A stretch of 64,000 nucleotides of DNA from Spinacia oleracea (taxonomy: Eukaryota > Streptophyta > Magnoliopsida > Caryophyllales > Amaranthaceae). The notes below the pieces were generated by a model that did no database searches, had not been told where the DNA came from, and worked only from the letters and a program-made list of their open reading frames with translations. Position numbers and translations under genes: made by a program. Position 1 is the stretch's first letter; each line of letters starts with the position of its first letter. Of this stretch, positions 46,164 to 51,368 are shown piece after piece. The DNA lies in contig NC_079488.1 in the NCBI RefSeq assembly GCF_020520425.1, forward strand, positions 1,651,747-1,715,746, in the 5' to 3' direction.

Positions 46164-46172
46164 TTATTTTTA

Positions 46173-46255
46173 CGGTTTTTTCATGAAATGCCCCTGAGGT
46201 TTGCAATAATGCACCAAATACACCTGCGTGTTTTAAAATTCATAAAATACCCCTA
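46173..46255 (+). repeat. MULE left terminal inverted repeat
   Basis: 83 bp that match the right end (51277-51359) in reverse complement with two differences, in the segment 'gcgtgttttaaaa' versus 'gcgcgtttcaaaa'. Further inward the two arms share only short pieces such as 'ccgttag'. Confidence 0.93.
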
Positions 46256-46529
46256 TTTACTCAAAACTGTTCACCAAATACCCCTATTATGACTTTCCGT
46301 TAGTCCTCCGTTAAGTCATGTTTAAAATTCATAAAATGCACCTAAATATAAAGGTTTTGCATAGTATACACCTATTTGTAAAGTTCTTTGCACCAAATAC
46401 CCAAACTTCATAATTTGAATCCAACGACTAGTTTTAATTCAATATAGCCGTTATGTTCATGCTGCCTATAAGTAAGGTTGTTGTTCACTTGACTTGCTCC
46501 ATGTTTAGCCCTCTATTTCCTAAATAGCC

Positions 46530-46976
46530 ATGAGTTCTAATTCAAAAACCGGATCCTCTTCCATCCCAAGTTTGTCATACCTAAGAGTTCCAAATAAAAA
46601 CTGCAATTGTGGGAGAAGATTTGCAATTAGGAGCTCGGAAACGGCTAAAAATCCGCAAAAGCTTTACTACAAGTGTGATTCTTGTGATAATTTCAAGTGG
46701 TGCAAAGGTTTTGTTGAGCAGACATTTGATGAAGCTCAAAGCAAGGGAAACAGAGCTGATGAAAACAGGGGAATGCAAGAAGAAAACAGGGGAATGCAAG
46801 AAGGAAGCAGGGGAATGCAAGAAGAAAACAGGGGAATGCAAGAAGGAAGCAGGGGAATGCATGAAGAGTTGAAGCTATTGAAGAAGAAACTGAAACAACA
46901 GAAACAACAATTCAAGTTTGCAATAAAAATTGGTGTAATAATGTTTGCATTTCTAATTTGGATAGCAATGAAGTAG
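46530..46976 (+). CDS. GRF-type zinc-finger protein with C-terminal membrane helix, MULE-borne
   Basis: This single open frame encodes 148 aa inside the MULE, 357 bp from its left end. Residues about 25-62 form a GRF zinc finger: CNCGRRFAI, then YYKCDSCDNFKWCKGF, with the usual CxCG...C..C pattern. Next come five tandem heptads, ENRGMQE/GSRGMQE (about 77-111), a Lys/Gln/Leu-rich probable coiled coil (LKLLKKKLKQQKQQF) and a hydrophobic helix of about 18 residues at the C-terminus (IGVIMFAFLIWIA). Similar small proteins are annotated in plants as 'At1g43920-like'; their function is unknown. Gene position matches that of mudrB in MuDR, but no similarity to MURB is evident. The ATG sits in a good context (gccatgag). 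Confidence 0.82.
   Translation: MSSNSKTGSSSIPSLSYLRVPNKNCNCGRRFAIRSSETAKNPQKLYYKCDSCDNFKWCKGFVEQTFDEAQSKGNRADENRGMQEENRGMQEGSRGMQEENRGMQEGSRGMHEELKLLKKKLKQQKQQFKFAIKIGVIMFAFLIWIAMK
46758..46867 (+). repeat. 21-bp tandem repeat inside the GRF gene
   Basis: About five copies of a 21-bp unit (forms such as gaaaacaggggaatgcaagaa and gaagcaggggaatgcaagaa, alternating) encode the ENRGMQE/GSRGMQE heptads. The alternation suggests a 42-bp higher-order duplication. In-frame length keeps the protein open. Confidence 0.85.
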
Positions 46977-47200
46977 AGTTGTAACAAATTTCAAGCAAGA
47001 ACATCACTTGTTTAAGCATATGAGCTTTACAAAAACTGATTTCTAAGTGGACAAATGCCACTGAAACTGCACAAAAACATCTTGTCTAAGCAATTGTGTT
47101 CTTTCCAAAAAGTGATACTAATTGTAAATTGCCTAAGCTATTTTAACTTTGTGCACCTACAATTCACCAAAAACTGACTAACTTTTAACTTTGTGCATGG

Positions 47201-50200
47201 TTAAGTTGCTGTGTTTGCTCTTTTCCTCCCCCTTGAACCCCCTTGTGATGTACTTGCTCCTGCTGCTGCTGAAGTGCTTGGTCCAGTGCTTGGTCCTCCA
47301 TTCTTACATGTCCTTGAGTTATGACCAAACTCCCTGCACTTTCCACATTTCACATTGCTGTTTCTCTTCCCCTTCCTGGGTTCATTTGGTCCTCTCTTTC
47401 TCTTCTTAGCAGGTCTGCCAGCTTGTCTTTTGATGACTGGAGGCTGAATGGTAGGGAGAGAAAAGTTAGGCCACTGTGTTGGGTCTGACATGGGGTGAAT
47501 GTGGTCTGCATATGTAAGCTTGTATGCAGCAGACTTGAAGAATGGGGAGACAAAATCAATGGGGTTCAGCCTTTGGTCATAAATCACCCTGAGTGCATGC
47601 TTGCAGGGGATTCCAGAAATTTGCCACTTCCCACACCCACAGCTTCTAGTTGATAACCTGATGGGGAAGTTCACATGTGCATCTCTGACCTCAAATTCCC
47701 CCCCACCACAGGCTGTAGCATAGCAGAACCTAGACTCTCCTGTTCTTTCATCCACCTCTTTCTTGGCATACTCAGTCAACTGACCATCCTCCATATCAAT
47801 TGCCATGTCAAATCTTGCCCCAACCCTCTCCATACACCACTTTCTGATTGCTGTACAACAACACAACAACATACAACATTATACACAGAACATCACAAAC
47901 ATCACAAAATAAAGGAACAGAACATGAAGTGGTGAGCTATACCTTCCAACAATGAGAATACAGGCATGTCTCTGTATGGTTTTGTGCATGCATTGAATGA
48001 CTCCACAAAGTTTGTTGTGTTGTGATCACAACAAACAGCAGGGTCAAACATATGCCTGGACCACTGCTCCTGGCATGTGTCCAAGTATGCAGCAGCATTT
48101 GGATCATGAGCAGTGATCTTCTCTAATGCTTTACCATACACATACTCATTGTGTGCATTTGCAGCTATCCAAAACAGTTTGAAGAAAGCAGATCCACTAA
48201 ATCCATTGTTTTTGCAATTCATGTACAAGTGTTGGCAGCAAACTCTCCTAGTAGCTCTAGGAAAAGTATCTCTCACTGCCAAGTCAACTCCCTACACAGG
48301 ATATGTTCATTTTAGGCCAATCATATCTGTTGCAATATTATAAAATTGAAACAAAAAAGGAGCAAAATAAACATATACCTTCATCCTGTCACTGATGAAG
48401 GTCCAATCATCTTTGTTGCAACCCTCTTGCTCAAACATCTGCCTCAAGCATCTCATGAAATGTGTCCAACTATCACAGCTCTCAGTGTCCACTATCCCAT
48501 AAGCCAGAACAAATATTTCATTGTTCCCATCAATGCCAACAGCTGTGAGTAGGATTCCCTTGTAAAACCCACTTAGATGAGCCCCATCTATTCCAATTAT
48601 AGGCCTGCACCCCCTCAAAAACCCCTTGACTTGAGCAGCAAAGGAGAAGAAACAAGCTCTGAACTTGGGGTTCACATCCCCACTTGTAGCACCCCATGAA
48701 ATCAGTGCATAACTTCCTGGGTTTGTCTGTTTAATCATCTCAGCATACCTAGGAAGCAACTCATAAGCCTCAGCCCAACCACCATGTATCTTCTCTACTG
48801 CCATACTCCTTACTTTGTACAACAATCTCTTTTTAACCCTCAATTGAAATGTCTCCTGTGCATACCTTCTCAATGTCTCAACAGGAATTTCAGTGTTGGC
48901 CTCAATTAGACTCATCATGTTCTTACATAGCCACTCAGAGGTCACCACAGGGTTCTCCTCCAATCTCCCACAAGTTTTGTGGCACCCACTGATCCCCTTA
49001 ATAGCCCAACTGACACTGTCAAACATCTTACTTGCATGTATCCTCCAGTCACAAGTTTCTATTGCACACACTGCAGTGTACCTCTTACTGTCAGCCCTCT
49101 CAACACTTAGTCCAAACCCCTCTTGTATGCAAAAACTCCTCAAAACATCTAGGAAAGTGGACTTGTCTGGAAAGATCAACCAAGGTTCTAATTTGATGGA
49201 CCCATATGGTTGATGAGTCCATATCTTTCCATTCTTGTAGGCCTTATCCATCTTACTAGAACCATCCAAACATTCCTCAAACAATAAGTCAGGCACATCA
49301 TCTGTTATTACCTCAGCCTCCACATCAGAGTCAACCCAATCATCAAGTTTATCCTCCTCTAGTTCATTGTCTGGTTCAGATTCCTCCCAATCTGAATCCT
49401 CACTCTCCTCTTCTGAACCTATATCCTCAATATCAGTGAACACCCTTGCACTCTTTGACCTCCCTGTACCCTTCCTACCTATGCCCTTCCCTTTGGATAC
49501 CCAAGTTCCAGCTTTCTTGGCAGTCACTTTGTTCACCCTGAACCCTGTAGGTCTAGTTCTGGCCCCCTTCCTTTTAACAGCTTCAGACTGATTCTGTGTT
49601 GGTGTTGAATGGGGTGGCTGATCATTTTGGGTGTTCTGTGGTGGTGGGGAATGGGGTGGTTGATCATTTTGGGTGTTCTGTGGTGGTGGGGAATGGGTGG
49701 GGTGTGTTTGTGGTGATGGATTGGGTTGCTGTGGTGGTGGGATGGGCTGCTGTGTTGTTGGGGTGGGTTGCTGTGCTGGTGGGATTGATTGTTCTGGAGT
49801 TGGGGTAGGTTGCTGTGGTGTTGAGGTGGGCTTTTTTGTTGTTGGGGTGGGTTTTTTTGCCTTTGGTGTGGCCTGTTTTTGAGTTGGGGTGGGTCTCCTC
49901 TTAGGGGTCAGTTTCTTGGCTTTAGGAACCTTAGGAGCTTTTGGAGTAGTTGGCTTGACTTTGGCCTTTTGTTTTGGTTTAGGAGAAGTAGGTTTTTTGG
50001 AGGGTGAAGATTCTTGTGTGGGTTGTGGTTGAGAGGCTCCTGGAAACACCTCATCAGCACCATCCTTGCTTATAATCCTCACATACTCAGTGCTTAAGTC
50101 CTCACAATCAACCACAGGCACCTCCACAGCTATTGTGTACTCCATTTGTTCTTGAAGTTCCCTTAAAATGTCCTCTCTCTCCTGTTTTTTCCTCATTTCC

Positions 50201-50586
50201 TCTTCCTCCTTTCTTTGAGCCCTAAGAAGTTCATCTTGTCTCTCTTTGAGCTTTCTCTCACTCTCCTTCCTATGATGCTCAATTGTGGCAACAACATTTC
50301 TAAACACCACTCCTGGTTTGTCTGTACCCTCAACCCATATTTCAGCAGTGTCCTTACCCCAATTCCATCCCCACATTAGCTTCATTGTCTTATCATCTAC
50401 CAACTCAACTCTACCACAGGGAGACTCAATAAACAGGGCAAATGTACTAGGTAAAAACACATCCTGCCTAACAGATTCCTCAAAAATATCCAAAAACAAC
50501 CTCAAAAGACGATACTTTTCCATGTCTGTAACTCTCACATCAAAGCTATGTGATCCATGATGCAATAACAACCACATTGCAGTCAT
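47201..50586 (-). CDS. MURA-type Mutator transposase
   Basis: Three exons on the minus strand, 48379-50586, 47943-48291 and 47201-47850, join in frame to 1068 aa. The N-terminus (about 1-95) resembles the plant PB1-like domain of such transposases. A coiled, charged stretch and a long Pro/Thr/Gln-rich linker (about 190-350) follow, then an acidic patch and the Mutator DNA-binding domain (about 455-640). The DDE core shows Asp667 in GIDGAHL and Asp733 in ISDRMKG, with the motif CCQH; Glu785 in NAHNEY is the likely third residue. A SWIM zinc finger (CGCG...GIPCKH) and a CCHC knuckle (CGKCREFGHNSRTC) close the protein. It would cut and join the element's terminal repeats. The minus-strand leader lies in 50587-51276. 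Confidence 0.92.
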
Positions 50587-51276
50587 CCTAAAGGGAAAAT
50601 TTAAGGAAAAAAAAACATGAATTTCGATTCAACCAACAACAATTCATCAATAAACAACCACAATCATGATCACAATGAAATTCAACAGGTCACAATCACA
50701 ACTTACAACTAACCAAACAATTATTCACAACAAATCCAAGGAATAACTAACTTCTAACCAATCAATTAATCTCAACTGACAATTTCAAAAAATCACTGAC
50801 AATTTCGCAAAACCCTAACCCTAATCAATTTCGCGAAAAAAATTGTACTTTACAAGCAAAATAAATCAGCGAAGAAGGAATTATTACCTTGAAGTAGATA
50901 ATCCAACTAGGAAAAGGGCCCTTGTTCGTCCACTGCACCCGAAGCTCTAAATCGCCTCCAAGTTGCCCCCTTTTTGTCGCGAATTCACCAAACGAACACC
51001 CACGAACTCGCCAAAAGAGAACGCAACAAATTTCACTAAATTCTTGAAGATCTACCCAGAATTTTGTCAGTTACAGTAGAATTGATGAGGGTTGAAGAAC
51101 AGGGGAAAGGAGAGAGAAAGAAGAGAAGTTGAGAAGTTTTTTTTTTTTTGGAATTTCAGTCACAATTGTTACCTAAATCGCGCCAAACAACAATTAAGGG
51201 CAAATTGGTAAAACGTCACTAACGGCAAGCTAACGTCCGTTAAATCCAAGAGCATTTAATGAACAGTACGGAACTT
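50587..51276 (-). promoter_or_regulatory. Transposase leader and promoter region within the MULE
   Basis: The stretch between the transposase start and the right terminal repeat is non-coding. It carries a telobox-like 'aaccctaaccctaa' at about 50813-50826, a motif known from promoters of growth- and translation-related plant genes. Its role here is an inference. No clear TATA box was fixed. Confidence 0.45.
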
Positions 51277-51359
51277 TAGGGGTATTTTATGAATTTTGAA
51301 ACGCGCAGGTGTATTTGGTGCATTATTGCAAACCTCAGGGGCATTTCATGAAAAAACCG
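51277..51359 (-). repeat. MULE right terminal inverted repeat
   Basis: Reverse complement of 46173-46255 with two mismatches. It is followed at once by the target duplication ttattttta. Confidence 0.93.
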
Positions 51360-51368
51360 TTATTTTTA

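Follow-up and report, generated by a model that had tools for sequence, protein, structure and literature searches.

In maize, the Mutator-like element (MULE) MuDR consists of two genes, mudrA and mudrB, which are enclosed by long terminal inverted repeats (TIRs) and of which the second runs opposite to the transposase gene; its product MURB is described as a helper whose function is unclear (PMC3276141, PMC9168764, PMC3903597). The role of the second gene in two-gene MULEs is a long-standing question, partly because mudrB has been reported just from Zea (PMC3276141). The window that we analysed, 64,000 nucleotides of the Spinacia oleracea genome, contains at 46173-51359 an intact-looking and autonomous-looking MULE that likewise carries two genes. 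Its second gene encodes a small protein with a GRF-type zinc ribbon and a predicted membrane anchor (here called GRF-TM). Does this gene belong to the transposon, or is it a host gene that the transposon has captured?

The element is bounded by TIRs of 83 bp at 46173..46255 and 51277..51359, which pair with 2 mismatches, and by identical copies of the 9-bp target-site duplication TTATTTTTA at 46164..46172 and 51360..51368; none of these four features has a strand. It thus shows both the long arms and the duplication of ~9 bp by which MULEs are recognised. Between the arms, GRF-TM is read from the plus strand (46530-46976) and MURA from the minus strand (47201-50586), and the two convergent coding regions are separated by 224 bp. 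Two convergent genes, MURA and a second one, between shared TIRs make up the MuDR-type plan, and the likeness to mudrB is one of gene plan. The first-pass annotation, made from the letters of the window, had proposed an intact-looking MULE with TIRs and a 9-bp duplication, and, within the same TIRs as MURA, a convergent gene of 148 amino acids. Both proposals were borne out.

The transposase gene has three exons, as had also been proposed, all on the minus strand. Exon 1 (48379..50586) contains a low-complexity N-terminal part, the DBD_Tnp_Mut domain and a MULE domain that includes two D residues as catalytic candidates, exon 2 (47943..48291) a candidate catalytic E in the motif NFVESFN, and exon 3 (47201..47850) a SWIM finger and a CCHC-like knuckle. 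The introns of 87 and 92 bp are both of the GT-AG type, and the joined exons form 1068 open codons followed by a stop. DBD_Tnp_Mut, MULE and SWIM scored above their Pfam cut-offs, and zf-CCHC_6 scored below its own. Together with the candidate D/D/E residues in IIGIDG, FISDRM and NFVESF, these domains mark a MURA-type DDE transposase, in which these residues presumably form the catalytic triad. In a Pack-MULE the transposase is absent and a host fragment lies inside, whereas here the transposase is present and the GRF gene is common to deep MULE lineages, as described below.

Relatives of the left TIR occur at many genomic sites, with at least 40 matches scored from 2102 candidates. Seven sister copies with both ends were compared, each at a different site; their 9-bp duplications were identical in six copies and had 3 mismatches in the seventh. 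A chance or artefact reading of the window element is ruled out, because the element recurs at numerous sites, each with its own 9-bp duplication. Four of the seven copies measure 5142-5144 bp, i.e. 43-45 bp less than the window copy, and 42 bp of this excess is an additional coil repeat inside the GRF gene. Some elements, shortened to 3.1 kb by internal deletion, are likewise flanked by perfect duplications (L054/L055, C3:48694176-48697292; L031/L040, C6:98604299-98607438); these retain the GRF gene and have no match among the 150 listed for the MURA core.

GRF-TM is a single exon on the plus strand (46530..46976; 148 codons plus stop), an open frame with 150 relatives listed. Its zinc ribbon (46602..46700, plus strand) is arranged as C25-x-C27 ... 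C49-x2-C52 ... W57, an assignment based on a Pfam match below cut-off together with conserved residues. The ribbon scored 21.7 bits against the cut-off of 25.9 for the Pfam GRF family (PF06839), which was exceeded by relatives L074 (29.4 bits) and L075 (31.6 bits) and not by L069, L071 and L073. C25, C27, T38, N41, P42, C49, C52 and W57 were invariant over eight GRF-TM proteins, so that all four ligands, the NP pair and the W are retained. The GRF finger named in the first-pass annotation is hence supported by ligands, T, NP and W common to relatives that pass Pfam, although the window protein itself falls short of the cut-off.

The CxC...C...C ribbon with conserved T, NP and W is shared with the NEIL3/APE2-type GRF zinc fingers (PF06839). 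Unlike in those proteins, GRF is the sole recognised domain of the small GRF-TM protein, which ends in a hydrophobic anchor, and the last two cysteines of the window lineage form CxxC, as opposed to the wide spacing in the others. Compared by profile, proteins of the window lineage matched those of the L074/L075 lineage with an E value of 2e-5 and a probability of 77%. When the eight-protein profile was compared with PDB, two NEIL3 GRF entries ranked at the top, with whole-chain E values of 0.00028 and 0.00051 and weak single-finger E values of 0.77 and 0.89. The L074/L075 profile alone placed NEIL3 at 0.29, outranked by an unrelated lectin at 0.17.

The ribbon is followed by a charged coil of tandem NRGMQE-type repeats. 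A coil is thus present as first annotated, although the term 'heptads' used for it was loose. In the window protein the coil is 14 residues longer than in the common sister form. The tandem repeat (approximately 46755-46865 of the window) differs among sister copies, whose genes have 134, 141 or 148 codons. The C-terminal hydrophobic helix, a predicted tail anchor of residues 128-146 (46911..46967, plus strand), has a 19-residue Kyte-Doolittle mean of 2.10 and stops 2 residues from the end, in agreement with the C-terminal helix noted earlier. In all ten GRF proteins compared, several of them nearly identical, the most hydrophobic 19-residue stretch ended 1-3 residues before the C-terminus. 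This layout is that of a tail-anchored protein, for which hydropathy predicts insertion into a membrane.

Genome-wide searches were carried out in one genome, of 894 Mb in 242 contigs, six of them large. We used as queries a 134-residue MURA core (150 matches listed), several GRF proteins and the Pfam GRF family, and joined the matches by their coordinates. Only the best candidates were scored, so that copy counts are lower bounds and 'no GRF gene' means none among the matches listed. For relatives of the window GRF protein, the best 150 of 168 matches were used. From the Pfam GRF family, 83 of 150 matches were joined, leaving out mainly one GRF family that was already listed separately. Another GRF protein contributed 58 of 150 matches, the other 92, mostly with 49-53% identity, being left out, and L071 contributed 21 of the best 150 of 154 GRF relatives, the rest being already in the window-GRF list or mostly interrupted by stops. 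All other lists, among them those of the MURA core and of the window GRF protein, entered the joins with every listed match.

Among the 150 listed MURA-core matches, 143 had a GRF gene within 20 kb and 130 within 4 kb, and the two genes were convergent in all 143 linked pairs. Linkage extended over both identity classes, with 79 of 83 matches at ≥87% and 64 of 67 at 71-77% identity to the MURA core. The commonest gaps in such pairs were 1406 and 1511 bp. A smaller earlier join on the six large contigs linked 200 of 297 MURA matches, again all convergent, whereas random placement of the GRF matches gave an expectation of 5.0 linked matches and a maximum of 11 in 200 shuffles. Hence, the possibility that sister MULEs mostly lack the GRF gene failed for this lineage. 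Conversely, around the 30 best window-GRF matches (the window's own copy included), the left TIR preceded the GRF gene by ~357 bp in every case, and MURA exon 3 followed it downstream. In 57 of the best 150 of 168 GRF matches, none of the 150 listed MURA-core matches lay within 20 kb. Nine of these 57 were examined: six (L026, L031, L034-L037) have a MURA truncated within exon 2 or within the core, and no break was visible within the locus in three (L019, L022, L025).

The association extends to more distant lineages. Five loci with a MURA 75-76% identical to that of the window all had a convergent GRF-TM gene (38-49% identical) inside repeats of 123-149 bp. L074 and L075, which represent abundant GRF families from the Pfam list, have repeats of 139 and 173 bp and MURA cores that share no more than 41% and 38% identity with the window core, and here too the GRF-TM gene is convergent to MURA. 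L076 is a full-length element with a GRF protein 84% identical to that of the window. In total, the GRF gene lay inside the element's own TIRs and duplications of 9-10 bp in eight of eight further full-length elements from six subfamilies. The program that located these duplications tried many offsets; they are nevertheless convincing because the TIR ends agree with them, with zero end mismatches in six elements (L069, L070, L071, L072, L075, L076), one in L074 and two in L073, the duplication of L071 being a run of T and little informative. Together with the 30 nearest relatives, these elements contradict the idea that close GRF-TM relatives lie mostly outside TIRs. The GRF gene has been inherited with MURA, in fixed orientation and within the TIRs, over subfamilies that are 38-100% identical in the MURA core.

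The first-pass annotation had suggested a comparison of gene trees. The MURA and GRF trees of nine elements agreed at every resolved fork, with the order of three inner groups unsettled in both; the MURA rows were frames of either the first or the longest exon and differed in coverage. We calculated dN/dS with our own Nei-Gojobori count for two pairs of elements, all other pairs being at or near synonymous saturation. For the GRF gene, dN/dS was 0.36 between the window and L076 (dS 0.22) and 0.09 between L071 and L073 (dS 0.65); the corresponding MURA values were 0.17 and 0.20. These values are signs that the GRF gene is kept by purifying selection.

Two further observations concern sequence divergence and repeats in these elements. 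Within the same pair of elements, synonymous divergence was 0.22 for the GRF gene (window 46530-46976 versus L076:528-929) and 0.84 for the first-exon frame of MURA, a contrast that hints at exchange between subfamilies or at uneven rates. A 49-bp tandem repeat is present at L075:3362-3753, inside the transposase region.

GRF-TM-like genes may also accompany another type of MULE. L079 adjoins a FAR1-type MULE (PF10551; FAR1 in L080), from which a convergent gene of two exons, one for the GRF ribbon and one for coil plus anchor, is separated by 2.2-2.7 kb. The 19-residue stretch of highest hydrophobicity in the second exon of this gene likewise ends 1-3 residues from the C-terminus. When matches to this second exon and to the L079 MULE domain were joined within 35 kb, 21 of the 150 listed MULE matches were linked convergently, 4 in the same orientation and 125 not at all, compared with a random expectation of 1.4 linked and 0.3 convergent pairs. 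Spacing was near 8.4 kb in four pairs and near 10.7 kb in three. No long terminal repeat was found in 7.7 kb around L079, and the 113 second-exon matches comprised 22 convergent ones, 7 in the same orientation and 84 without such a MULE within 35 kb; for these two reasons, an extension of the partnership to FAR1-type MULEs is suggestive only. Hence, the placement of GRF relatives inside MULE TIRs applies to the window lineage, whereas the two-exon relatives are mostly not placed beside a MULE. Among the best-scoring PF10551 matches, 142 of 150 had none of the GRF matches then listed nearby, 5 were convergent, 2 in the same orientation and 1 divergent. In L077, which belongs to a FAR1-type 586-residue group, inspection by eye of the 3 kb downstream revealed no open reading frame of ≥70 residues reading as GRF, a search that a short exon would escape.

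The 84 second-exon matches show that GRF-type genes not placed beside a listed MULE exist in this genome, as would be expected if the GRF gene were a captured host gene, a passenger in the style of Pack-MULEs that has been amplified with the element without serving it. Extra open reading frames in MULEs are indeed often taken as host-derived (PMC6446971). L078, a GRF exon with no MURA-like open reading frame seen in 4.3 kb, points the same way, a weak negative given that the same search missed the FAR1-type MULE of L079. A passenger, however, would be expected to decay or vanish, whereas the GRF gene has a single orientation in all linked pairs, a tree that agrees with that of MURA and dN/dS values below 1, and is found in elements whose MURA is merely 38-41% identical. 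On linkage, orientation and trees we reject capture as the best reading and consider it improbable.

The GRF gene is not universal in MULEs, as some MULE lineages seem to lack one. Among the listed MURA matches of the L074 type, linked and convergent GRF genes accompanied 80 of 89 matches at ≥80% identity. The share was only 1 of 10 for matches at 70-79%, and 29 of 51 for those at 49-63%. At L082, beside one of the matches at 70-79%, no open reading frame of ≥40 residues read as GRF in 1.05 kb at the expected place. With PF03108 as query, a linked GRF gene was convergent to 109 of the 150 listed matches and had the same orientation as one; the other 40 had no GRF match within 20 kb. The five top PF03108 matches (C4:7228452, C5:2730786, C4:54859375, C4:15163371 and C3:15599147) are set off from the rest by their scores, and no GRF gene is listed within 60 kb of any of them; they are possibly domesticated transposase genes, perhaps MUSTANG-like.

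In other families the GRF gene is present and interrupted. In-frame stops occurred in 108 of the best 150 of 154 GRF relatives of L071, and therefore not every copy requires the gene in cis. Match length and stop number are alike in many of these copies (e.g. C1:41257946-41258335), and the high-copy families among them seem to have been amplified after their GRF gene broke. The many stop-bearing relatives suggest that the GRF product can act in trans or that some families can do without it. They would also suit a reading in which the gene is a remnant or by-product, with convergent transcription regulating the element and the peptide having no role. Set against this, dN/dS is below 1 in both unsaturated pairs, and ligands and tail are conserved over large divergence; we regard this reading as very improbable. 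A rice element without an opposite-strand ORFR has been reported as recently active (PMC9168764), which counts against an obligatory second gene.

The window MULE is a variant of the two-gene MULE plan, one that is more general than could be seen from the window itself. Other plant MULEs with antisense genes offer partial parallels. Abermu elements of barley and other plants combine a transposase with an opposite-strand ORFR of unknown function and Ka/Ks <1, in which they resemble the window MULE; ORFR, however, is reported to show no similarity between distant species and to vary in position (PMC9168764), whereas GRF-TM can be recognised, always in the same position, in deeply separated lineages within one genome. 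An antisense accessory gene also occurs in several plant MuDR-like clades, but this gene encodes a plant mobile domain (PMD) and not a GRF zinc ribbon with tail anchor (PMC6446971). Unlike the GRF-TM gene, mudrB has been reported solely from the genus Zea (PMC3276141, PMC3903597). The main text of the Abermu paper contains neither 'GRF' nor 'transmembrane' (PMC9168764), and 'GRF' does not occur in the main text of the survey of MULE diversity (PMC6446971). In the open-licence PMC literature, we found no paper joining GRF fingers with MULEs.

We conclude, with a probability of roughly 0.6, that GRF-TM is an accessory gene owned by the transposon and part of a two-gene MULE, and that it is a predicted helper of transposition that resembles mudrB in plan. 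GRF fingers of NEIL3 are described as suited to single-stranded DNA, and those of the mouse as binding single-stranded and forked DNA (PMC9266487). From this family relationship and from hydropathy, GRF-TM may bind single-stranded DNA and insert into a membrane. For its helper role we hypothesise the following mechanism. The GRF-type ribbon would attach either to MURA or to DNA that is single-stranded or branched, and the charged coil would oligomerise the protein. The tail anchor would insert post-translationally into the membrane of the ER or nuclear envelope, and the anchored protein could then tether the transpososome, or the ends of the element, to the nuclear periphery while strand transfer or repair takes place. 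Such tethering would serve reinsertion, a step for which maize MURB is reported to be important (PMC9168764).

The accessory genes of MULEs are diverse, and vanC of the Arabidopsis element Hiun has an anti-silencing function (PMC6446971). GRF-TM could accordingly be an antagonist of host defence encoded by the element, VANC-like in plan, instead of a cofactor of transposition; a convergent gene under selection is compatible with either role. A tail anchor is not an obvious feature of a chromatin anti-silencing factor, however, and the solved structures that match the profile best, albeit weakly, are the GRF fingers of NEIL3, an enzyme of DNA repair. We therefore think an anti-silencing role rather unlikely and prefer a transposon-owned gene that helps transposition.

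For genome annotation, these results come with a warning. Well over a hundred small GRF genes in the Spinacia oleracea genome are transposon genes, because 143 and 110 MURA matches, in two lists, adjoin one. For MULE biology, a widely inherited GRF-TM gene that combines a ribbon with a predicted anchor means that the need for a membrane-tethered cofactor is now testable in many elements. A broader and tentative reading, which we consider possible and would not favour at present, is that plant MULE transposases in general have long had a tail-anchored GRF protein as their partner, its gene being kept convergent in MuDR-like and some FAR1-type lineages, that mudrB and the fast-evolving ORFRs are diverged or substituted versions of one role, and that many small plant GRF-type genes are transposon genes. 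If this reading were true, membrane tethering would be a step of transposition.
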